From IMG/VR virus record IMGVR_UViG_3300032736_000362, positions 1 to 24,980 of that record: DNA of 24,980 bases; one strand, written 5' to 3'. Positions 2,124 through 22,999 of this stretch are shown here, one piece after another. This stretch comes from a virus. The translations under genes were made by a program, and so were the position numbers. The notes under the pieces were generated by a model that was given only the letters and a program-made list of their open reading frames with translations, was not told where the DNA came from and made no database searches. Positions within the stretch are counted from its first letter, which is position 1; every line of letters begins with the position of its first letter.

Positions 2124-3653
2124 TCACACCGCTGGCGTGTAGTAGGACGACAGATTTCCCGCCACGTACAGGAACCCGTCAATCACCTCGATGGCGAAGG
2201 TCTGGGCTCCCCAGTTGTAGGACCAGACCAGGCTCCCAGACGGGTCATACTTCCGGGTCGTGCATTGCGTGGCGATGCGTGACGTGCCGACGCCGCCGCC
2301 CGGGTTGACACCGACAAGGTCTCCCGTAGTGTAGCAGTTTCCGTACGCGTCGAACGCCACGTCTACCACCAGACCGTAGCCGTGGTTCGCGCTCCAGATG
2401 ACGGAGCCCGACGAGTCGAGCAGCCTGGTCGTTTTGGCCCCAGCCCCTTGGCCGCCGCCGATCAGGATGTTGTCATTAGAGTCGACCGCCAGTGCGAAGA
2501 CGTGGCTCCCGTGCTCATAGCCCCAGAGCAGCGAGCCGGAGGGATCGTAGCAGCGGACCTCCGTGCCCGCGTTATTGGCCAGGGCGAAAATCACGTTCCC
2601 GCTGGAATCGAACGCGATGTCATAGACGGTGGCCGTGAAGGTGATGGTCCGAATTGCCGTCGAGCTGCCGATGGTGTAAGACTTGACCGCCGCGCCAGTG
2701 CTCGCCCATATTTTCCCGTCCGGGCCGATCTTGATGCCTAGGTTGTTCGCTGCCGTCGCGGTCGGGTTGGCAGCGATGACGATCCCATCGTAACCGATGA
2801 CGTCGAAACTGCTGTTGCCGGTCTGCGCGACGATGTTGGTGTCGTCGACGGTCACACGAGCTCTGAACGTCCCGCCGCCCGTCACGTGGATCAACTTGAG
2901 CAGGTCGCCGTTCTCCGGATCGACCAGCCACATGTAACCGTTGTTGTTGCCCATGATCGCCACCAGGGTGTCGTTGCCGACCGCCATTTCCGTGACGCCG
3001 TATCCGGCGGTTGCATGGGCGAAAGCCCAGACCTGATCCCCGTTCAACGTCATCTTGCGGATATGAGCCGGGGAGCCGATCGAACCCCCGCCCGTGCGCG
3101 TGCTGCCCGCCGCAATTTTGATGACCGCCCAGCGTGGATTCGACCCGGCTTCGTAGTGGAGGATCTTGGCCGCGCCGCTGATGCCGCTTTTCAGCTTCGT
3201 CGCATCGGTCCGCAGCACGTCGCACCACTCATCGCCGTCGTCGTCGAACTCGATGCGCACAACGGCCATGCCGCTGACGATGGCCCGGCCAATGCCGCCA
3301 GCCAGGATCGGTTCCATGAGCACGACGAATTTTCCCTGGTGCTCCCCTTGTGGAACGACCCCGCTGAACGCTGGAGTCTCACAGAACGCGACGATGTTTT
3401 CGCTCGGCTGGAAAACGAAGTCTTCGATGCCCAAGATGTCGAACTGCGCCCGATCCGCCCCGGAGTCATTCCGGATCAACACGATGCCCGTGTTGCGGGG
3501 ATCAGGCCGCACGCTGCCCTCTCCGCTCCGCGCCCGCTGGCCGCGAATCCACTGGAGGCCTTCCAACATCTCATTCCAGACGGTCGCCGGAATGCCCAGC
3601 GGTTGGCCGGAGATGGCAATTTTATTCTTGTCGCCGCCTGCGGTGCCGCTCAT
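2124..3653 (-). CDS. Beta-propeller tail tip / receptor-binding candidate
   Basis: This 509-aa protein is the last gene of the tail block, where receptor-binding proteins usually sit. Residues 1 to about 190 form a domain with no obvious repeats, probably the attachment to the tail. From about 195 onward the sequence is a run of 40-50-residue beta repeats with phrases such as YDPSGSLLWGYEHG, VYDIAFDSSGNVIFALA and ALAVDSNDNILIGGG. This is the pattern of NHL/PQQ-like or SBBP-type propeller blades. ATG 3653 overlaps the previous stop (ATGA). Host recognition is inferred from position and fold; an enzymatic role is not excluded, but no catalytic motif stands out. Confidence 0.7.
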   Translation of the reverse strand: MSGTAGGDKNKIAISGQPLGIPATVWNEMLEGLQWIRGQRARSGEGSVRPDPRNTGIVLIRNDSGADRAQFDILGIEDFVFQPSENIVAFCETPAFSGVVPQGEHQGKFVVLMEPILAGGIGRAIVSGMAVVRIEFDDDGDEWCDVLRTDATKLKSGISGAAKILHYEAGSNPRWAVIKIAAGSTRTGGGSIGSPAHIRKMTLNGDQVWAFAHATAGYGVTEMAVGNDTLVAIMGNNNGYMWLVDPENGDLLKLIHVTGGGTFRARVTVDDTNIVAQTGNSSFDVIGYDGIVIAANPTATAANNLGIKIGPDGKIWASTGAAVKSYTIGSSTAIRTITFTATVYDIAFDSSGNVIFALANNAGTEVRCYDPSGSLLWGYEHGSHVFALAVDSNDNILIGGGQGAGAKTTRLLDSSGSVIWSANHGYGLVVDVAFDAYGNCYTTGDLVGVNPGGGVGTSRIATQCTTRKYDPSGSLVWSYNWGAQTFAIEVIDGFLYVAGNLSSYYTPAV

Positions 3654-10712: not shown

Positions 10713-11897
10713 TTACGCTCCCACGTTGAACACGCCAGCGCGGTAGTCGACCAGGCCCACGCCCACGTCGAAGTAGCACCGCCACTGGAAGCCGAGAATG
10801 TCGAAGTTGGTCTGCCCGTTTTCGATGACGGGAGTCTTCTGACCCTTCAAAAATCCCTTGCTGATCAGCGGGACGTCTCCGGGGTCAGCCAGCAGATACC
10901 AGCCGGTTCCCGAAGCGTTCGCATGCACCGCCGAGTTCGACAGGTACGGGGAGCTGACCGGACGATACTTGCCGGAGTGCGGGTTGTCCGCAGGGACCAG
11001 CTTCCCGGCCCCGGATGCCGCCCCCAGAATCGCCACGATGTTGGTCTGGGCGAACAGTTGATCGGCAGTGATCTTCAGTTCGCTGGGAACCAGCAGGCAG
11101 TTCGGATTCAAAACGATCGGCTTTTCGGCCTTGTCGGTCTGCTTGAGGAAGCGGGTGACCGCCGCCGTCAGTCCGGTGATGGACAGGGCCGAGCCCGCGC
11201 CAGTTTCGTAGTTGGCGTGGTCGGAGTGGAAGAAGCTGCTGGGGTTGCTCAACAGCAGAGCGAACACCAGTTCTTCCAGCGTCAGGGCCGACTGGCGACC
11301 GAGCAACTGAGGAATCTGGAGGAACGCGCCGAGGTCATCATTGATCAGCATCTGCCGATTCAACGTGATGATCTTTCCGTAGGTGTCGAGCTGGTTCGAC
11401 CAGGTATCTTCCTGGAAGCTGTCAGTCTTCAGCTCGCCGGTCGCACCGACCTTTTCCAGCTTCCCGTTCATCGTCAAGCGATAGCGGGTCGCGGGCTTGA
11501 AGTCGTTCATGTCCTGCATGCCGCAGAACTCATCCGACACCGTGGGCACAGCGATGAAGCTGGCCAGCAGCGACTTGTTCGCGACGTTTGACAGGATGCC
11601 GCTGAGCGAAACCGTAGAGAATCCGCCGCCGCTGCCATCGGCCTGGATCTCCATGTCGCGCCGGCTGAGATGCAGCGCGGCACGAATCGTCTCATTGTCC
11701 AGACCGCCACCGTGAATCGGACGGCCATTCGCCTGAAGGTATTCCCCGGTGATGCGGGCGAACGAGAAGTTGCGGTTCTCGCGCTCCATCGCCGCGTTGA
11801 TCACGTTGGGGGTGTACCGCTTGTCGAGCTTTTCGAGGCTCGCCTCTTTCGTCCCGTTCCGCAGCAGCAGCGAGCATTCGATGATCGCGGACCGCAT
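10713..11897 (-). CDS. Free major capsid protein from internal start
   Basis: Within the fusion, ATG 11897 is preceded by GAGGAG (11904-11909) with six bases of spacing, one of the best SDs in the window. Translation from here gives a 394-aa protein, MRSAIIECSLLLRNG..., which is a normal length for a gpT-like major capsid protein and starts at the domain boundary. This would supply hundreds of capsid subunits independently of the twelve-copy portal. Features such as LTLEELVFALLLSNPSSFFH and PIVLNPNCLLVPSELKITAD fit the HK97-fold capsid group. Internal initiation is inferred from SD quality and domain position. Confidence 0.6.
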   Translation of the reverse strand: MRSAIIECSLLLRNGTKEASLEKLDKRYTPNVINAAMERENRNFSFARITGEYLQANGRPIHGGGLDNETIRAALHLSRRDMEIQADGSGGGFSTVSLSGILSNVANKSLLASFIAVPTVSDEFCGMQDMNDFKPATRYRLTMNGKLEKVGATGELKTDSFQEDTWSNQLDTYGKIITLNRQMLINDDLGAFLQIPQLLGRQSALTLEELVFALLLSNPSSFFHSDHANYETGAGSALSITGLTAAVTRFLKQTDKAEKPIVLNPNCLLVPSELKITADQLFAQTNIVAILGAASGAGKLVPADNPHSGKYRPVSSPYLSNSAVHANASGTGWYLLADPGDVPLISKGFLKGQKTPVIENGQTNFDILGFQWRCYFDVGVGLVDYRAGVFNVGA

Positions 11898-12404
11898 CGG
11901 GTTCTCCTCACGCTGGAAGGCATTGGCCTTGGGGCGAGTGGCGCGAATCATGGCCAGCTCGGCCCGGTCGGCGCTCCAGCCACGTTCGATGGCCTTGGCC
12001 GCGATGTCCGGGGAGTCCGCGCACAGCTTCCGAATCTTGTCGACCCGGCGCAGTTCCTTCGCTTCGCTGGCCCGGAGGCTGGCAAGGCGCGTGGTCCGCG
12101 TGGTCGTCCCCCTGGAGCTGCCGCCACGCGTCGCCGCACCGCGGATCGGCTGACGTCCACCCTTGGCCTTGGCTTTCGCTTTGGGCTCGGTGTCCTGGTC
12201 GACGTCGCCATCGACGTCGCCATCGGCTTCGGCTTCAGCGTCTTCATCGCCTTCAGCAGCTTCGGCGTCCTCGTCCTCATCACCCTCTTCCGTCTGGGTC
12301 TGCGTTTGCTTGCTTTCCCATTCGGTGGTCAGCCCCTTTTTCTGCTCGTCCGACAGCGCCGCCGGGTCGAACCCCAACGATTTGACCCATTCATCGAATC
12401 CCAT
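10713..12404 (-). CDS. Possible scaffold-capsid product from internal start
   Basis: A second internal ATG at 12404 follows AAGGG (12412-12416) with seven bases of spacing. It begins MGFDEWVKSLGFDPAALSDE, just after the protease domain. The next 70 residues are extremely acidic (Glu/Asp/Ala repeats) and are followed by a basic RGG-type and helical segment before the capsid. This layout recalls lambda Nu3, a scaffold translated from a start nested in the protease gene. The product would be 563 aa unless cleaved. This is an inference from the SD and composition only. Confidence 0.4.
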   Translation of the reverse strand: MGFDEWVKSLGFDPAALSDEQKKGLTTEWESKQTQTQTEEGDEDEDAEAAEGDEDAEAEADGDVDGDVDQDTEPKAKAKAKGGRQPIRGAATRGGSSRGTTTRTTRLASLRASEAKELRRVDKIRKLCADSPDIAAKAIERGWSADRAELAMIRATRPKANAFQREENPMRSAIIECSLLLRNGTKEASLEKLDKRYTPNVINAAMERENRNFSFARITGEYLQANGRPIHGGGLDNETIRAALHLSRRDMEIQADGSGGGFSTVSLSGILSNVANKSLLASFIAVPTVSDEFCGMQDMNDFKPATRYRLTMNGKLEKVGATGELKTDSFQEDTWSNQLDTYGKIITLNRQMLINDDLGAFLQIPQLLGRQSALTLEELVFALLLSNPSSFFHSDHANYETGAGSALSITGLTAAVTRFLKQTDKAEKPIVLNPNCLLVPSELKITADQLFAQTNIVAILGAASGAGKLVPADNPHSGKYRPVSSPYLSNSAVHANASGTGWYLLADPGDVPLISKGFLKGQKTPVIENGQTNFDILGFQWRCYFDVGVGLVDYRAGVFNVGA

Positions 12405-14462
12405 GACTGAACCCTTGAGTTTGGCGGACGCTGCGACTTGCGCGGTTGTTCGCGCGTCGGCCCCCACGGACACGAATGAGACTTCCCGAAGCTCGAAGTC
12501 GCGAGCAATTCCAATCGGACCAGCGAACACCCGCCCGTTGCATTCCACCTCTTCCCCCTCGTCGTACAGGTCGATAGCACCTCGGCCACCGATCGACGCC
12601 TGCCAGGGGAATTTCCGCTTTCCAGCCGCGATGACTTTGTCGCGATCCTTGCCCACGCCACTGAAGACACCTGTCAGCGTGATCTGGCCATTACCGACAA
12701 CCACGTTTTGCGAGTCGCCGACGATGCGTTCGGGGTCATGCTCGTACAGGATCGGTGTCGATTCCGACGCCACGATCGCTGTCTCGAGGTCGACCACGAT
12801 CTTGTGCTTGAACCCGTCCAACCTCATCGCGCCGCCGGTGTAGGCGAGCATGCTGAACGTCGGAATCTTTTCGGCGCCTGCCCCCTCGGCTGCTTTGATT
12901 TGGAGGTTCGCGGCGACCGCTTCGAACTTCAGGTCTTGGTGTTTCTTGGCCGACGCCGTCAGGGTCACCTTGGCCCGCGCTGCCGCCGGTTGCGGGCTGG
13001 GCTTCTTCACGGGCTGCGGCTCCGGTTCTTCCCCCTGGACGATGATGGCCGATTCGAAGATCGACCGCTTCGTGATCTCGCGCATCTCATCCTCGGAGAT
13101 CCCAAAGTACGCAGCGTTCTCGCGGATCACATCGCCACCAATATTCCCGGCTTTCTGTTCGTCGCTGATCGATGTTTGCCCGGTCTTGAGACGTAGCAAC
13201 ACGGACTGCGCATCTTTCTGCGGGTCGATCGATCCCTGCGACGGCCAGTGCCATTCGTGAGGGACACGCTTCAGGTAACCGCGCGGCAGGCGCAGAACGA
13301 TCTCGGCTTCGCGCCGCCAGTGCCGGTACATGGGATTGAGCACCATCTGCGCAATCCACGACTGATCGATCTCGATCGAGCGGAAATAGGTCTGGTGATC
13401 CAACCGGCCCGAGCTGTAGTTGTAGCCCGAGCTGTCACAGGCCGCGATTCCCAGCGGCATGTTGATGCAACGGGCGATGATGCCGATCATCGACTTCACA
13501 AAGACGTCAAAATTCCCGACCGGCTGTTCGGGTTTCAGTTGCCCGATCTTCTTCCCGGGGGGCAAATTGGTGATCAGATTCCGCTGAATTTCCAGCGTCA
13601 TCCAGTCGTCCGCACTGTTCCCCTGACCCTCTTCGTCATCGCCGATCGCTGTGCCGTCCGTTGATTCGATGAACGCAGCGAAGTTCGCGGCCACTTCTGC
13701 GCTCGACACCGTAGCCAGCATGTACCGGCGCAGAACCGCGAACAGTTCCAGCGAGGATTGCAGCGGAGGGACGCCCCGTCCCTGTCCCGGCCGGGTCTTG
13801 TGGAAGTAGTGCAGGATGTCCTTCGCGTCAACCGTGTGTTCCATCGGCCAGGCCATCGGCAGCACATCGTTGGGACGCTGAACGATCAACTGATAGCTGA
13901 GCGGATTCCACTGCGGGTCGTAGGTGATCCCATCCACCTGATAGGGGGAGTAGAGCGGGCGCAGGCTGGTCACGAAATCGGCTTCGATCAACTGATAATC
14001 GAGCTGAATTCGTTCGAGCTTCGGGTTGCCGATCTGCTGGAAAAAGCACTCTCCATCAGAGGTTTGAGTGTGCTTCATGATCCACAGTTTTTGGGCAAGC
14101 CCACACTCTTCCGACCAGTGCTCCCAGAGCTTTTCCCCCAGTCGGTTGACCTTCGGATTGACGCCGACGAGTTGCAGCTTCGGGCCTGTCCCGATGGTGT
14201 GATTCGTGAGCGTCGAGACGATGCCAGAACAGACCGTATCGGACCCGATGGAGTAGCGGCTGCGGTTGCGCAGCGCCCGCCGGACACCGGGAGAGTGTGC
14301 CGCGTTGGCGTTCAAGCCGTCCGCCGCCGCCCAGTGATTGGCGTTGTGGCGAGTGGTCTGCGCGGAGTCGTAGCTGGCCGCGATGTCTTCTCGCGACTGC
14401 TTGCCTACGTTGCCCGAAGATGCTGTCGCGCTGAACCAGGTGAGAGGATTCCAGAGGCTCAT
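10713..14462 (-). CDS. Portal-protease-scaffold-major capsid fusion
   Basis: One uninterrupted ORF of 1249 aa, starting at ATG 14462 (ATGA overlap with the previous gene; a longer frame to 14507 lies in that gene). Residues 1 to about 480 are a lambda gpB-type portal (SYDSAQTTRHNANHWAAADG; LDHQTYFRSIEIDQSWIAQM). After a proline-rich linker, about 510-675 is an HK97/Mu-type prohead protease with candidate His575 (ILYEHDPERIVG) and Ser623 (FPWQASIGG). Residues about 687-770 are an acidic scaffold-like segment and about 856-1249 a gpT-like HK97-fold capsid subunit. Protease-capsid fusions are known; adding the portal is unusual because portal and capsid are needed in very different amounts. Confidence 0.8.
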   Translation of the reverse strand: MSLWNPLTWFSATASSGNVGKQSREDIAASYDSAQTTRHNANHWAAADGLNANAAHSPGVRRALRNRSRYSIGSDTVCSGIVSTLTNHTIGTGPKLQLVGVNPKVNRLGEKLWEHWSEECGLAQKLWIMKHTQTSDGECFFQQIGNPKLERIQLDYQLIEADFVTSLRPLYSPYQVDGITYDPQWNPLSYQLIVQRPNDVLPMAWPMEHTVDAKDILHYFHKTRPGQGRGVPPLQSSLELFAVLRRYMLATVSSAEVAANFAAFIESTDGTAIGDDEEGQGNSADDWMTLEIQRNLITNLPPGKKIGQLKPEQPVGNFDVFVKSMIGIIARCINMPLGIAACDSSGYNYSSGRLDHQTYFRSIEIDQSWIAQMVLNPMYRHWRREAEIVLRLPRGYLKRVPHEWHWPSQGSIDPQKDAQSVLLRLKTGQTSISDEQKAGNIGGDVIRENAAYFGISEDEMREITKRSIFESAIIVQGEEPEPQPVKKPSPQPAAARAKVTLTASAKKHQDLKFEAVAANLQIKAAEGAGAEKIPTFSMLAYTGGAMRLDGFKHKIVVDLETAIVASESTPILYEHDPERIVGDSQNVVVGNGQITLTGVFSGVGKDRDKVIAAGKRKFPWQASIGGRGAIDLYDEGEEVECNGRVFAGPIGIARDFELREVSFVSVGADARTTAQVAASAKLKGSVMGFDEWVKSLGFDPAALSDEQKKGLTTEWESKQTQTQTEEGDEDEDAEAAEGDEDAEAEADGDVDGDVDQDTEPKAKAKAKGGRQPIRGAATRGGSSRGTTTRTTRLASLRASEAKELRRVDKIRKLCADSPDIAAKAIERGWSADRAELAMIRATRPKANAFQREENPMRSAIIECSLLLRNGTKEASLEKLDKRYTPNVINAAMERENRNFSFARITGEYLQANGRPIHGGGLDNETIRAALHLSRRDMEIQADGSGGGFSTVSLSGILSNVANKSLLASFIAVPTVSDEFCGMQDMNDFKPATRYRLTMNGKLEKVGATGELKTDSFQEDTWSNQLDTYGKIITLNRQMLINDDLGAFLQIPQLLGRQSALTLEELVFALLLSNPSSFFHSDHANYETGAGSALSITGLTAAVTRFLKQTDKAEKPIVLNPNCLLVPSELKITADQLFAQTNIVAILGAASGAGKLVPADNPHSGKYRPVSSPYLSNSAVHANASGTGWYLLADPGDVPLISKGFLKGQKTPVIENGQTNFDILGFQWRCYFDVGVGLVDYRAGVFNVGA

Positions 14463-14665
14463 TCCGCACCCCCTGGGGAGACAATCTTGCCGATGGTGAT
14501 GCCCCACGGGGGCCGACGGTTAGCCCGCTTGGCTGCCAGGTGCTTATCCGCCGCGATCTGATCCGTGAGCGACTTGGATGACATAGTGGTGCCGTCCACG
14601 CTCACGGATGCGGGCTTGCTCGCGTTGGTCGCGATCGTGTCAGAGAGATCGTTGTCATCGGCCAT
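14459..14665 (-). CDS. gpW-like head-tail adaptor candidate, 68 aa
   Basis: This 68-aa protein lies between the terminase side and the portal, where lambda W sits (A-W-B). It contains SVSVDGTTMSSKSLTDQIAA followed by a short helix DKHLAAKRANRR and a C-terminal strand. The 'v-DG-x-S-v-x-x-x-S-L-x-x-x-I' pattern is common in small proteins placed before portals. It is short for gpW and lacks an obvious second helix, so homology is not certain. Its TGA overlaps the portal ATG, and its own SD is weak, so it may be translated by coupling with the zinc-ribbon gene. Confidence 0.6.
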   Translation of the reverse strand: MADDNDLSDTIATNASKPASVSVDGTTMSSKSLTDQIAADKHLAAKRANRRPPWGITIGKIVSPGGAE

Positions 14666-14684: not shown

Positions 14685-14930
14685 TCACATTAAGTTCAGA
14701 AGTGACATCAACCGTTCAAAAAGGTTTTGCCGAGCTTCAGGCGAAAGTTCTGGCGCTAACGCCTCGTTTGGCATATGCGCCTCCACCTCAACCGTGAATA
14801 CGGTTCTGCCACAGTTCCGACACGACCGCTCACGCCGGACCTTCGCACCCGCAAGGTGCCGGGTGTGCCGCACGGGCAGATGTGGACAGCCGCAACCACG
14901 GCAGCGAATGCCTTTGTCTTCCTCGCTCAC
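14685..14930 (-). CDS. Zinc-ribbon protein, 81 aa
   Basis: I start this gene at GTG 14930, inside the terminase stop (GTGA overlap), with GGGAGGG just upstream; the longer frame to 15095 is terminase shadow. The product contains CRGCGC ... CRNC separated by about 25 residues, a four-cysteine zinc ribbon with basic residues between the knuckles (HTRHLAGAKVRRERS). Such ribbons appear in small nucleic-acid-binding phage proteins, including late activators and NrdR-like proteins. Placement next to TerL suggests a role in packaging or late transcription, but the sequence does not decide. The C-terminal half is helical. Confidence 0.65.
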   Translation of the reverse strand: MSEEDKGIRCRGCGCPHLPVRHTRHLAGAKVRRERSCRNCGRTVFTVEVEAHMPNEALAPELSPEARQNLFERLMSLLNLM

Positions 14931-16996
14931 ATCGCCCTCCCCGCTCTCATGTGATCCGGAATGGACGATGTTCGTTTCTTTCGCTTCGCCGCCGGGGCGT
15001 GTTCCGGCAGTCGCACGCCCATCCGCGCCGCCGCCGCGTAGCAGCCAGTCAGGCAGTCGAGCAAATGGTTGTCCTCGCCGGGAACCTCCGACCACTGCCA
15101 GACCGTGCGCCCGTGCCCCTCGGTCTTGACGCAGGCTTCGCCCGCCAGGTGATCCTTCAGCATCCGGTGCTGTTCCGGCTTGTCACCCCACAACTGTAGC
15201 GACTGCTGAGTGCCGAGCGTGGCTGCGCGATTCGCCCCGAATGTCTTCCAGAAATTCGTGTCATACATGCACATGGTGCCCGCGCGCTTGGCCGGGTCGC
15301 GGGTCTCGATGTAGTGAAACCCGATCTTCTGGGTCTCGCTGGCTGGCCAGTCGGACATGGGGCGCTTGGCTGCCGTGCATCCGTAGCCCTTCGACGACTG
15401 GACTGTTGCACCGAACGCCGATTTGCGGACAGCCTCATGCACCGTGTCGGACCATTTGCCGCTGTCGACAAACAGTTTGTCGATGCGCATCTCGGCCCCA
15501 CCCTGCCGAGCGTATGGAGTGGTCGCGAGTCGGGTGATCAACCGGCCCAGCCCCAATTCGATGCAGGCTTCGATGCTGGCTGACTGACCCTGTTCGCCCA
15601 GCACGGTCGCCAACGTCTTTTTGACTTCCCTCAATGTGAAGTAGTTGCGCGGCTGGTCGGGCTCGAATCCGTAGTCGATGACGGATGCTGTGAAATCATC
15701 CCCCACCGCGAGCAGCAGGTAGTACAAAATCCGCTGTTGCACGTCGATGAAGCCCACCAGCTTCGATGACCAGACCGGGCAGACCAGTCGCGGCAGCCCG
15801 TTGAGCCGAGAATCGATCCCCTTGAAGGATGGGGTTTCCGTGTCGTCATCCGAGTTGATCGGCTCCTGCTGGTACTCCGCGGCGAAAGCGGCCGGGTTCC
15901 GATACCACAGGTTCATGGCCGATTGCAGGGCCGAGACTTCGTCCGGGTTGAATCGCTCCCGCCAACTGACTTCGCCCCCCGCATCCAGCTCCGCGCGGTT
16001 CGCCAGGTAGAACGCATTCCCTCTCAAAGAATCGCCGTCGACCCGCTTCCCCTCGGCGCGAATCTCGAAATAGGTGTCCCACAGTTTTTCGTTCGTGGGT
16101 CGCGCCCGCAGCATCTTCAGCCGGGAGGCTTTCCACATGGGATGTTTTTTCGAGTCGAGCATTTCATCGGCCAGGTCTCCCTGGTAGATGACCGTGCACG
16201 GCATGATGCAGGCGATGGTCACGGTCGGCCCGGCCAGCCCCATGACGTCCCCCTCGATGATCTCGACGCGCTCCGTAGTCTGGCTCGACGACTTGGCGGA
16301 TTCTCGCGTCTGGGGATCGTCCAGAATGGCCATGTCCGGACGGATGATCTCCCCCGTCATCAGCCGATGATTCTGCCCACGGATCGCGCCCGTGATCCCA
16401 CAGGTGCTGATGATGGCCCCGGCGATCGGCGACCCTTCTCGCGTCGGGAGCACGATCATGTTCACCCCCCACGTGATCTGAGTTTTCTTGCCGCAACACA
16501 TCTGCCCGCCCGCCTTCCGTGCATCATTCTGCAACTGCGGGATGCCCCAGAGTTCCGGGAAATCCGCGTTCAGCGTTTCGTTCCAGCAGAGTTCATCCTT
16601 GATTTGCTTCAGCAGCTTTTTGGCTGCGGAGTCGGTCGCGCAGATGATGCACAGGAATTGCCGTAGCCCCTTCAGAATCGCCCAGATCGCCAACCCCTTC
16701 GTGATGGTCGTCTTGCCGAAACCCCGCTGACAGGCGAGCGCGTATTGCCCGCCAGCGGTCGCAACCTCGGCAATCGCCTGGATGATCAGCCGGTGATCGT
16801 CGCTGAACTCAAGAGGGAACGCCGCGCCGAAATAGGTCTTGAGGAACAGCTCAGGATCGGCCAGAGCGGCAACGCGTCGCTGCGGATTTTCCACCTCTGG
16901 CGCGGAGCCGATGTCGCGAGCTTCTGCCGACGTCTTCCGCCCACGTTCAAGCGCCGCTCCTTTGTGTCGCTCGTAGGCGTCGGTGTTCGCGATCAC
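14927..16996 (-). CDS. Terminase large subunit
   Basis: This 689-aa protein starts at GTG 16996 (GTGA overlap). The ATPase domain has a Walker A, CQRGFGKTT (about 89-97, with the arginine variant typical of terminases), and a Walker B, ILDDPQT (224-230). The C-terminal nuclease domain shows the three acidic positions expected of an RNase H-like fold: Asp418 in GFIDVQQ, Asp511 in LFVDSGKWS and Asp647 in NHLLDCLTG. It packages DNA into the prohead through the portal encoded downstream. The length and C-terminal 'NH-x-x-D' motif resemble the lambda gpA group. All motifs are intact, so it should be active. Confidence 0.9.
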   Translation of the reverse strand: MIANTDAYERHKGAALERGRKTSAEARDIGSAPEVENPQRRVAALADPELFLKTYFGAAFPLEFSDDHRLIIQAIAEVATAGGQYALACQRGFGKTTITKGLAIWAILKGLRQFLCIICATDSAAKKLLKQIKDELCWNETLNADFPELWGIPQLQNDARKAGGQMCCGKKTQITWGVNMIVLPTREGSPIAGAIISTCGITGAIRGQNHRLMTGEIIRPDMAILDDPQTRESAKSSSQTTERVEIIEGDVMGLAGPTVTIACIMPCTVIYQGDLADEMLDSKKHPMWKASRLKMLRARPTNEKLWDTYFEIRAEGKRVDGDSLRGNAFYLANRAELDAGGEVSWRERFNPDEVSALQSAMNLWYRNPAAFAAEYQQEPINSDDDTETPSFKGIDSRLNGLPRLVCPVWSSKLVGFIDVQQRILYYLLLAVGDDFTASVIDYGFEPDQPRNYFTLREVKKTLATVLGEQGQSASIEACIELGLGRLITRLATTPYARQGGAEMRIDKLFVDSGKWSDTVHEAVRKSAFGATVQSSKGYGCTAAKRPMSDWPASETQKIGFHYIETRDPAKRAGTMCMYDTNFWKTFGANRAATLGTQQSLQLWGDKPEQHRMLKDHLAGEACVKTEGHGRTVWQWSEVPGEDNHLLDCLTGCYAAAARMGVRLPEHAPAAKRKKRTSSIPDHMRAGRAM

Positions 16997-17238
16997 TCAG
17001 GCACCGCTTTGGTGGCCTCTCCAGTTGCTAGCTTCAGTTCATAGTCGGCGAGCAGTTTCGCTTGATTGGCGTGTTGCAGTTTTTTCTGGGCGGTGAACCT
17101 GTCGCTCTCGGCCTGCTGTGCGGCGAGTTGTTCGCGGTACTGCTCACTGAACTCGTCGAACACATCGACCCAGTTCCCCTTGTCATCCAGGTATTGCCAG
17201 ACGAATTGCTCGAGTGATGTCCAGTAGCGGCGGATTAT
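16993..17238 (-). CDS. Coiled-coil protein before terL, apparent ATA start
   Basis: The reading frame becomes protein-like right after the upstream gene ends: IIRRYWTSLEQFVWQYLDDK, then FSEQYREQLAAQQAESDRFT and a helical tail. There is no ATG, GTG or TTG at the expected place. Instead ATA 17238 overlaps the upstream TAA as ATAA, five bases after GGGAGG. The longer frame to 17454 reads as shadow of the fibre gene. The product would be 81 aa and mostly coiled coil. Position just ahead of terL suggests a small terminase subunit or assembly factor, but no DNA-binding helix-turn-helix is seen. Confidence 0.55.
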   Translation of the reverse strand: MIRRYWTSLEQFVWQYLDDKGNWVDVFDEFSEQYREQLAAQQAESDRFTAQKKLQHANQAKLLADYELKLATGEATKAVPE

Positions 17239-18641
17239 GCTGTCCTCCCGAGATTCACGGACCAGCCGGCCGTCGCGCCCCGGACATTCGTGCTGGCGTC
17301 CGGATTGATCGCGCGATAGCGAATCTGCCCGCTGGTGTCTGTGCCGATAAAGAACTGCTGACCGTTGCTGACTCCCACGACCGTTTGCCGCTGGTTGTGC
17401 AGCGGCGCGGCGGAGCCGGATGGGGTCAGATCGGACTGATCGAGACTGCTCCACAGGATACTCGGCTGCGCCGAGGGACCAGACACGACACCGTAAAACT
17501 GCGCCAGCACCTTGATGCCCAGCGGGACAGTCAGGATCTTCAACACTGCGGAGGTGCCCGGACCGCTGTCATTCACGTCGAGGATCGGCTCGCGGTACAG
17601 GCAGACATCACCATCCTGGCGGAACGGCAGAATTACGCTCGATGCATCGTTGAAGATCCACCAGACCCACGCTGAATGTGTGTAACCGGAGGGGAGCGTG
17701 GGGGCCGTCGCTGACAGGCTGATTAACCAGTCAGACGCGCCACTCGTCGCATTGTAAATCGCGTGGATGTGATAGCCGATGCCCGACGCTTCCGAACCTG
17801 TGTCGAGCTTGGGTTGATTCGTCCCGGCGACCCACGTGCCGCCGTCGATTCGCAGCGTCATGGCAGCCGGAGTGATGTACACGCTGCGGGTCGCGTCGTG
17901 GAAGATCCCCGCCGTGATGTCGATATCATTCGCGGCGTCGGTAGTGTTGTTGCTGCAAATGCCGCCGTATCGCTGGGGCAGGACTGTGGAGAGCGCCAAT
18001 GCCTTGCGAGCTGCGGCGGTGAAGGTGGCCAGCGCCGCTGTGCCCAACCCCGTGAAGTACGGCAACCGGTCTGCTGCCGATGTCAGCCCGGCGATGGCTG
18101 CGAGTTCCGCATCGGCAATCGTGGTGGCATTACCCACACTGGTGACCGGCCCCGTCAGGTTGGCGTTCGTCGTGACGGTGGCCGCGTTGCCCGGTATGTT
18201 GGTCTGGTCGCCGGTATTGGTTCCGCCGGACGTACCGCTAAACGTGCCATCCTGAACAGCCAGCGTTCCTAGGCCTAAATTGCTTCGCGACGAGGATGCA
18301 CTAGCTAAGTCTGATAGGTTGGCAGACTTAATCATGTACGCGCTCAGATCCTGGTCGCCAGTATTCGTCCCGCTGGCTGTGCCAGAAAATGACCCGGACT
18401 GCGTGGACAGGGATCCTAGCCCCATTGACGACCTTTGACCCGCTGCATCGACCTGGGAAATCAGTGCCCGTCCAGCCGCCGTGCAAGGGATTTCCTCAAT
18501 CACCCCCGCCCCAGCCGTGGAGCGGCCCAGCACTTTATCGGTGGCTGACGCATCCTGGATCGCTGAATAAGGCAGAGTGTCTCCCGATTGGAGAGACTCC
18601 ACCTGGCCGCCAGTTATCACGAGTGGGAGCTTTGAGGCCAT
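17235..18641 (-). CDS. Tail fibre-like protein with FSGT/TNTGDQ repeats
   Basis: This 468-aa protein begins MASKLPLVITGGQVESLQSG, a short plug shared with the next gene upstream. It then carries two copies of a fibre repeat, about 74-97 and 123-147 (GLGSLSTQSGSFSGTASGTN with TGDQ; GLGTLAVQDGTFSGTSGGTN with TGDQ). These glycine/serine/threonine repeats are frequent in phage tail fibres. The C-terminal 250 residues are strand-rich with aromatic stretches (HSAWVWWIFNDASSVILPFR), possibly the receptor- or surface-binding head. It is a virion appendage by composition and context. Unusually, it lies before terL rather than after the tail genes. Confidence 0.65.
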   Translation of the reverse strand: MASKLPLVITGGQVESLQSGDTLPYSAIQDASATDKVLGRSTAGAGVIEEIPCTAAGRALISQVDAAGQRSSMGLGSLSTQSGSFSGTASGTNTGDQDLSAYMIKSANLSDLASASSSRSNLGLGTLAVQDGTFSGTSGGTNTGDQTNIPGNAATVTTNANLTGPVTSVGNATTIADAELAAIAGLTSAADRLPYFTGLGTAALATFTAAARKALALSTVLPQRYGGICSNNTTDAANDIDITAGIFHDATRSVYITPAAMTLRIDGGTWVAGTNQPKLDTGSEASGIGYHIHAIYNATSGASDWLISLSATAPTLPSGYTHSAWVWWIFNDASSVILPFRQDGDVCLYREPILDVNDSGPGTSAVLKILTVPLGIKVLAQFYGVVSGPSAQPSILWSSLDQSDLTPSGSAAPLHNQRQTVVGVSNGQQFFIGTDTSGQIRYRAINPDASTNVRGATAGWSVNLGRTA

Positions 18642-18644
18642 TGC

Positions 18645-19124
18645 TTAGAGCTTGATGGGAGGGAATGCGGAGATGTCCAGTTCGGTCGTGCTCAACGCCA
18701 GCCCGGCACGCACGACAAACGTACCGGCAGACGTGGGTGCGGTAGTCGTCAGCAGGCCAGCAGTGACACTGGAGACGTAGTAGGGCGTGTTGAATGTCAA
18801 ACCGCCCGTCTGCCCGGTGATGTCGTCCCACTCGCCGGTCGTCAGCGTCAGGATGCCGTCGGTCTGAATGCTGCCCGAGGCGTTCGTGAGGATGGGCGCA
18901 CGAGTCAGGCCGAGAAGCTGCGACGTGCCCTGGGAGTTGGCCCTCGCCATGTCTACCTGAGTGGCGCTGCTGGGATAGACCGGTGTTCCCGGTGGCATGG
19001 TCCCCGCGTTGATATTGATCTTGGCGACGACGTCAACTTCTGTTGTCGAGGCGTCCAGTGTGTCGCCCGACTGGAGTTGCTCGACCTGACCAGCGGTCAT
19101 TACAAGCGGTTTCTTAGCTGCCAT
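18645..19124 (-). CDS. Appendage protein, paralogue B
   Basis: This 159-aa protein begins MAAKKPLVMTAGQVEQLQSG, nearly the same plug as the 17235-18641 protein. It ends with a module (about 88-159) containing TGEWDDITGQTGGLTFNTPY and LLTTTAPTSAGTFVVRAGLA, shared with the 19125-19694 protein. It is therefore a chimera of its two neighbours and probably part of the same appendage or fibre-collar assembly. ATG 19124 follows the upstream stop directly (TAAATG), and the next gene begins three bases after its own stop. The family name is unknown. Confidence 0.6.
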   Translation of the reverse strand: MAAKKPLVMTAGQVEQLQSGDTLDASTTEVDVVAKININAGTMPPGTPVYPSSATQVDMARANSQGTSQLLGLTRAPILTNASGSIQTDGILTLTTGEWDDITGQTGGLTFNTPYYVSSVTAGLLTTTAPTSAGTFVVRAGLALSTTELDISAFPPIKL

Positions 19125-21184: not shown

Positions 21185-22036
21185 TTACGCCACCATTCCC
21201 ACGTAGGTCGGGACGGTTCGCGGGGAGAATGCCATCAGATCCGTTAGGCCGATCAACTCGCTTCCGTCATCCCATCCCCAGCGGTCGAAGCATGCGGGAG
21301 CGACTTCAGCCCATCCCTTATTGCCCCATCGCTCGCTGTGCGAATTCACGAGCCACAGATAATTTCGGCCCTGGGAATCCTTCCGTTCCGAGTACCCAAC
21401 AACCGCCAGAGCGTGACCGCCGTATGGATCCCCCGACAGGTCTGATACCTCAATCACGCCTTTGTTCGCGAGTCCAGCGGTCCAGAGGATGCCGATCTCG
21501 ATAGCTCCAACTCCCGACGCGAGCCATTTGAAACAATCTGCGTACGACTTCAGAACGGAATGCCGCCGAGCCAAATGAAGCTTGCCGACTTCGAGAGCCT
21601 CCGCCGGAATCACCTTCGTGTACCGCTGACAGGTCTCCCGGCATGAACACGGTGACACATCACACGGATACGGGAAAAGTTCCTCTGGACAACAGCCGAG
21701 TGTCATCGCGCCTTTGATCGCCCCGGAGATCATCGCCCCGGTGTCGCCGCGCGATCCTCCGTCGCCACGCTGCGCCGCCAAATAGCCGAACATCCGCGAA
21801 AGCTGAACTATCTTGCCACCGGTCGCAATGTAGTTCAGAACCTCTTGGATCGTGCTGATCGCTTGGCCGGCGCAGCTCCCCATGACCTTCTGATTCTCGA
21901 CCTTCAGCCATGCACGATGATCGATCTTCTCGGGCGCGGTGTAGCCTTGAACCATGCAGAACGGAACCGCCGTACGATGCAGTTCCTCTCTCGATTCAAG
22001 ATCTCGCCGCCAGCCCAGCCCGGCAATTTGATTCAT
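21185..22036 (-). CDS. Papain-like (C1) cysteine peptidase
   Basis: This 283-aa protein has a complete papain tetrad in order: Gln49 and Cys55 in QKVMGSCAGQ (the same six-residue spacing as papain Gln19/Cys25), His208 in GGHALAVVGY and Asn231 in LWLVNSHSERWGNKGW. Residues between Cys55 and His208 include a cysteine-rich loop (PYPCDVSPCSCRETC) that could be disulfide-bonded. No signal peptide is evident. ATG 22036 is chosen because it overlaps the upstream stop as ATGA after GGGGGG; an ATG at 22075 would overlap more. C1 peptidases are rare in phages. Possible roles are host protein cleavage, lysis or virion maturation. Confidence 0.85.
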   Translation of the reverse strand: MNQIAGLGWRRDLESREELHRTAVPFCMVQGYTAPEKIDHRAWLKVENQKVMGSCAGQAISTIQEVLNYIATGGKIVQLSRMFGYLAAQRGDGGSRGDTGAMISGAIKGAMTLGCCPEELFPYPCDVSPCSCRETCQRYTKVIPAEALEVGKLHLARRHSVLKSYADCFKWLASGVGAIEIGILWTAGLANKGVIEVSDLSGDPYGGHALAVVGYSERKDSQGRNYLWLVNSHSERWGNKGWAEVAPACFDRWGWDDGSELIGLTDLMAFSPRTVPTYVGMVA

Positions 22037-22422
22037 CGCACGGCCCCCCGAATTTGCGTAGCCATATCTCGCCACGGTTGTGAGCGCGGTGCATCGGCTG
22101 GCGGGTTGTTCCTGTCCTGATATCCGCCGAGCGACTTATTAAGAGCGGCCTTGGCTGCATCGCTGTCATCGTGAAACTTTTGGTACGCCTGGCCGCTGAC
22201 TGTGATCGTGCCTGCGTCGATCTCAGCGGCGATCGCGTCAGATGTGTCGGCCAGATCGAGCAGATACTGACGGGACGCGTCTCCGGGCTCTGCGACCACT
22301 TCAGCAACATCGCCGCCCCCGCCTTGCTCCACACACCCCGACGCCCACGACAACGCCAAGAACGCCGCGAGCACGAGCACGAGCGTTGACAGGACGTTGC
22401 GGGTTTGGGGGTTGTCGGTCAT
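22033..22422 (-). CDS. Small lipoprotein, o-spanin candidate
   Basis: I start at ATG 22422, which overlaps the stop of the micro-ORF upstream (ATGA), rather than a GTG at 22464. The product (129 aa) has a classic lipoprotein signal, VLSTLVLVLAAFLALSWASG followed by Cys, then a helical periplasmic region with a proline/asparagine-rich end (GGYQDRNNPPADAPRSQPWR). A small lipoprotein beside membrane genes in a phage suggests an outer-membrane spanin (Rz1-like). It is longer than most and not proline-dense throughout, so another envelope role is possible. Confidence 0.6.
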   Translation of the reverse strand: MTDNPQTRNVLSTLVLVLAAFLALSWASGCVEQGGGGDVAEVVAEPGDASRQYLLDLADTSDAIAAEIDAGTITVSGQAYQKFHDDSDAAKAALNKSLGGYQDRNNPPADAPRSQPWRDMATQIRGAVR

Positions 22423-22873: not shown

Positions 22874-22928
22874 GCTCGCGAGAGCGGCGTAGGATGCGGC
22901 TGAATAAGCTTCTATGGGTTTTCTCCAG

Positions 22929-22999
22929 TGAATCGGGGTGGAATTGAACCACCGACCGCAGACGATCCGCCCGCTACTCTGCCACTGAGCTACCGACTC
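22929..22999 (-). tRNA. tRNA-like structure with abnormal anticodon arm
   Basis: A 71-base cloverleaf can be drawn. The acceptor stem is GAGTCGG/CCGATTC with one G-T pair and discriminator A. The D arm is GCTC-AGTGGCA-GAGT, and the T arm is GGTGG-TTCAATT-CCACC with a perfect stem. Invariant T8, A14, G18, G19, T54, T55, C56 and A58 are present. The anticodon arm GCGGG-CGGATCG-TCTGC lacks the near-universal T33 (it has G), and the loop bases pair with each other, leaving only GAT unpaired. CCA is not encoded. It may be a decayed tRNA-Ile(GAT) or a tRNA mimic. A plus-strand ORF starting inside this locus (22928) is probably an artefact. Confidence 0.65.

Follow-up and report, generated by a model that had tools for sequence, protein, structure and literature searches.

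In phage lambda (genes C and Nu3) and in the herpesviruses (UL26 and UL26.5), the protease gene gives a nested product in the same frame, with the same 3' end but without the protease part; in both this product is scaffold only, and the capsid and portal are encoded by separate genes. The overlap of lambda C and Nu3 is, judging from its title as cited in PMC8508860, the subject of Shaw and Murialdo 1980. Going by a title cited in PMC7762592, a 2010 paper reports a protease-scaffold-capsid arrangement for Gifsy-2. In Pseudomonas phage MD8, gp5 likewise combines a protease, a scaffold and a capsid of the HK97 fold in a single ORF; the passages of PMC8508860 on this three-in-one gene describe it without an internal start. 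The same protease-capsid order is found in family NF045541 (prohead protease/major capsid protein fusion protein), which takes in RcOceanus and other deposited phages.

Here we compare these systems with a locus in a metagenome-derived IMG/VR record of 24,980 bases, the whole of which we call the window. Similar to lambda C/Nu3, the window has an in-frame, Shine-Dalgarno-led start after the protease, albeit with a weak Shine-Dalgarno sequence and a product that is predicted; in the window, moreover, the capsid follows the scaffold in the same frame. Similar to Gifsy-2, it has a single ORF for protease, scaffold and a capsid of the HK97 fold, with an internal ATG led by a Shine-Dalgarno sequence after the protease, although Gifsy-2 and MD8 have a separate portal and a ClpP-like protease whereas that of the window appears herpes/S78-like. 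The internal start is likewise conserved in the deposited phages of NF045541, to whose order the window adds the portal, elsewhere a separate gene. We consider it likely that the window carries a head gene of a tailed virus in which the reading frame of a portal gene continues into a protease-scaffold-capsid gene of the Gifsy-2 type, giving both a full chain and a separately started scaffold-capsid. The portal extension is the part that is new to us, the rest being a gene like that of Gifsy-2 with a nested product as in lambda; our literature search, with most subscription papers beyond its reach, returned no portal-protease-capsid fusion, which is weak evidence.

Architecture of the four-part reading frame

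The window ORF joins portal, prohead protease, scaffold and HK97-fold capsid in a minus-strand frame that has no stop from 14507 to 10713, and consists of the following parts, listed with the neighbouring gene:

14459..14665, minus strand: small upstream gene, in the head-tail adaptor position by comparison with relatives
10713..14462, minus strand: whole ORF, 1249 aa from ATG 14462 (portal, linker, protease, nested scaffold-capsid)
13113..14405, minus strand: portal domain, residues 20-450 (PF05136; phrog_21)
12870..13100, minus strand: portal-protease linker, residues 455-531, Pro/Ala/Lys-rich, its modelled part of low confidence
12423..12869, minus strand: prohead protease domain, residues 532-680, model pLDDT mostly >90, herpesvirus protease fold
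12412..12416, minus strand: AAGGG, a weak candidate Shine-Dalgarno (-4.3 kcal/mol) of the nested start
10713..12404, minus strand: predicted nested scaffold-capsid gene, 563 aa from ATG 12404 (residue 687)
12102..12287, minus strand: disordered acidic then basic stretch of the scaffold segment, residues 726-787 (pLDDT about 40)
11937..12101, minus strand: helical scaffold-like segment, residues 788-842 (from the model)
10716..11897, minus strand: HK97-fold capsid domain, residues 856-1249 (PF25209; fold matches)

ATG 14462 is the likely start, since it shares bases with the stop codon of the small gene before it, in the sequence ATGA, and is preceded by a strong Shine-Dalgarno sequence (-13.0); a PHROG search with the upstream gene gave no match. 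The portal matches PF05136 (lambda-family portal) over residues 49-367 at 7.8e-51 (173.7 bits, cut-off 32.9) and scores below the cut-off of the narrower portal family TIGR01539, while the capsid matches PF25209 over residues 941-1244 at 1e-38 (134.6 bits, cut-off 27). Two further profiles span some of the protease and everything up to and including the capsid, namely phrog_4523 (protease-scaffold-capsid) at 4.3e-80 and NF045541 at 1e-86. The NF045541 score of 291.9 bits lies below the curated cut-off of 525, and a second Gifsy-2-type family, NF045540, gives 167.5 against 475, so that the ORF is a relative of these families rather than a member. Together with recurrence in seven contigs (see below), the open frame and these domain matches confirm the initial annotation in its reading of four head functions in one stop-free ORF.

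The AlphaFold model is well-ordered over approximately residues 532-680, where its best structural matches are herpesvirus assemblins, with a best Foldseek E of 3.9e-5 and TM-scores of only about 0.4. A Pfam search of the window protease, PF04586 (S78) included, gave no match, nor did its profile match solved structures by sequence; fused relatives L059 and L301 do pass the PF04586 cut-off of 21 bits (32.2 and 34.3, respectively). On the model, the window protease appears to be of the herpes/S78-like type, and His575 and Ser623, both conserved, are its probable catalytic residues. In the model of the nested part an N-terminal helical domain is predicted with confidence, and there are also helical scaffold-like segments and an HK97 fold, the latter with phage capsids and encapsulins as its structural matches. 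ATG 11897, with its GAGGAG, was a possible further start of low confidence and was set aside because in that part of the relatives Glu-Ala-Ala codons often yield Shine-Dalgarno-like sites.

Elsewhere in the window, all on the minus strand, two neighbouring proteins (17235-18641 and 18645-19124) share the N-terminal motif KxPLVxTxGQVExLQSGDTL, the longer of them matching tail-fibre PHROGs and, weakly, the Mtd domain. A beta-propeller repeat protein (2124-3653; phrog_8401, 2.8e-15) lies among tail genes, a papain-family cysteine peptidase is encoded at 21185-22075 in this phage genome (PF00112, 4.1e-9), and the gene of a small protein (14685-15095), whose NrdR-like zinc ribbon scores too low for the Pfam threshold, overlaps the end of the terminase gene. 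A tRNA-Ile with anticodon GAT (22928-22999) may belong to the phage or be what is left of an integration site.

The in-frame ATG that follows the protease

Relatives were recovered by degenerate portal-motif patterns and alignments, and a search with the portal motif NYSSGRLDHQ gave at least 120 viral loci and 11 loci in genome assemblies. Since all 11 of the latter come from MAGs named Planctomycetota or its subgroups, the host is probably a planctomycete. In these relatives the protease-scaffold-capsid fusion is the norm, with protease and capsid sharing one frame in 323 of 331 judgeable separate-portal loci.

A scan of in-frame ATGs found that most loci have one, with a Shine-Dalgarno sequence, directly 3' of the protease domain. 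Of 137 nonredundant loci 111 could be anchored (the remaining 26 could not and are outside the statistics), and 93/111 carry a protease-adjacent nested ATG with a Shine-Dalgarno energy of -5 kcal/mol or lower and 66/111 one of -7 or lower, energies that assume the anti-Shine-Dalgarno sequence of hosts that are themselves inferred. Other 45-codon segments of the same 111 loci hold such an ATG in 7-26 loci at -5 and 0-17 at -7, the exception being the segment with the conserved YTGGxM codons (79 loci, only 8 of them at -7 or better). A Shine-Dalgarno core stands before the first ATG after the protease in 88/102 loci, compared to 10/82 and 5/102 for control ATGs in the scaffold and capsid. Moreover, the nested Shine-Dalgarno exceeds what synonymous shuffling predicts for the same peptide (p = 3.5e-12), and the control ATGs are not enriched. 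We found the same site in ten deposited phages, irrespective of the type of protease that precedes it (Bordetella PBb002, RcOceanus, Stenotrophomonas S1, MinM1, mEp460, Gifsy-2, LESphi2, PSTCR8lys, Nsp-JY21 and yong2). The nested ATG is unannotated as a separate start in the deposited protease-capsid fusion genes of Gifsy-2 (L296, 1898-3988) and mEp460 (L010, 2855-4813), and likewise in L002, L004, L005, L007 and L297-L300.

This conservation means that the scaffold-capsid part can be made alone, and the internal start probably does allow its separate synthesis. The initial annotation had seen a stoichiometry problem in twelve portals versus hundreds of capsid subunits and taken the fusion to imply portal release by proteolysis; with independent scaffold-capsid predicted from the nested start, the stoichiometry does not force proteolysis, and a need to excise free capsid from the long chain is unsupported. 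In the window itself, however, the nested Shine-Dalgarno is weak (-4.3) next to that of the portal (-13.0), so a simple capsid excess from Shine-Dalgarno strength is not evident, and this is the main point against such an excess.

The same weakness, the single uninterrupted ORF and a protease without its own ATG would fit a true polyprotein, in which nothing but the full-length chain is translated, to be cleaved by the protease into portal, protease and capsid. We regard this as improbable, as it would yield equal numbers of portal and capsid, and the nested Shine-Dalgarno and ATG are conserved beyond the needs of the peptide, also in relatives whose portal is separate.

The portal-protease junction and its recurrence

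Portal and protease are fused in seven contigs, representing five distinct sequences, and separated by a stop in 365 (all gathered loci, the contigs being partly redundant), or in five versus 122 loci at 80% identity. The fusion is thus rare and the portal mostly separate, yet relatives do not uniformly carry separate genes: searching them for the same fusion gave, besides the window, six further fused contigs (L059, L189, L304, L301, L334 and L305) from several metagenomes, a recurrence that goes beyond chance or one isolated error of assembly. L151, with an open frame of 1237, was ruled out as a fusion by a TGA at the end of its portal. Other searches were negative within their scope: a scan for close relatives with the window protein gave no match, a scan of 199 genomes recovered relatives and no further stop-free fusion, and no single place in INPHARED covered 80% of either the window or the L301 protein, portal and capsid being separate genes in its annotated records among the matches listed. 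The fused members do not group together on a quick tree with long branches (its five fused rows require five changes, and the starred branches force four), which suggests repeated origin; a single common origin of all fusions is unsupported on that tree, and the portal has apparently been added in front more than once.

The junction itself falls into two kinds. In the window, L189/L304 and L305 there is no ATG in any frame within the 195 bases upstream of the protease domain, a state seen in only 2/122 separate loci (Fisher p = 3e-4). In the window, then, the fusion cannot have arisen by a single indel between the portal and a protease gene that started at an ATG. Because its protease has no ATG of its own, the window probably makes portal and protease only as one chain, and, going by sequence, the joint portal-protease chain looks obligatory in all three lineages of this kind, with weak GTG starts possible. 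L301, L334 and L059, on the other hand, keep inside the fused frame a Shine-Dalgarno and ATG suited to the protease; in L301 (2408-5962) and L334 this Shine-Dalgarno is strong, and the ORF is a possible three-product frame.

The second kind of junction raises the alternative that there are three separate starts (full chain, protease-scaffold-capsid and scaffold-capsid) with the fusion functionally minor, the window protease being made from GTG 485 or 499 in the linker, where one GTG codon has a Shine-Dalgarno of -5.8. We think this quite unlikely, considering that the junction ATG present in 120/122 separate loci is missing in the window, L189 and L305; even if there were three starts, no stop would free the portal.

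As for the reality of the open frame, L189 and L304 are identical over 3,714 nt from two metagenome assemblies. L301 and L334 share 90% DNA identity with the frame kept, indels of whole codons and linker changes mostly at third positions. Errors can hardly account for every fused contig, given that the 512 kb of aligned domains contain only five apparent frame breaks or stops. In codon-position GC the window linker resembles its neighbours (GC3 of 0.82, compared to 0.77 in the portal). That the genes are really separate and joined by an assembly or sequencing error we therefore reject as very improbable: the window is one metagenome-derived record and most relatives have separate portal and protease, but the fusion recurs in six further contigs, with independent support in two cases, all frames at the window junction lack an ATG from which a separate protease gene could start, breaks are as scarce as just stated and the linker GC3 is that of coding sequence.

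Expression, head assembly and wider meaning

In our preferred reading, a portal gene fused to a Gifsy-2-type gene that keeps its nested start, both chain types would come from one message. Ribosomes starting at ATG 14462 would make the full portal-protease-scaffold-capsid chain, and those starting inside the frame at ATG 12404 may make scaffold-capsid alone, the bulk of the shell. About 12 long chains could then form the portal ring and bring protease and scaffold into the prohead lumen, after which the protease might remove the scaffold and separate portal, protease and capsid. Topology allows the linked order, since the lumen of the prohead is the side to which portal C-termini point and the N-terminal extensions of HK97-type capsids also point inward. 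The steps of which we are least sure are the release of the portal by proteolysis and the nucleating role of the long chains. A more specific version, to which we give less credence, is that in loci of the window's type the portal is made only in the long chain, that some 12 such chains constitute the ring and one protease-loaded, capsid-primed nucleus per prohead, and that nested scaffold-capsid completes the shell; covalent linkage would then set both the portal number and the protease dose.

It has long been asked how each phage head comes to have a single portal vertex and the proper amount of protease, and here, in what appear to be several lineages, a covalent chain joins the portal to protease, scaffold and capsid. 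Beyond the fused loci, the conserved nested start suggests that many annotated ‘protease-capsid fusion proteins’, that of Gifsy-2 included, are overlapping genes with at least two products.
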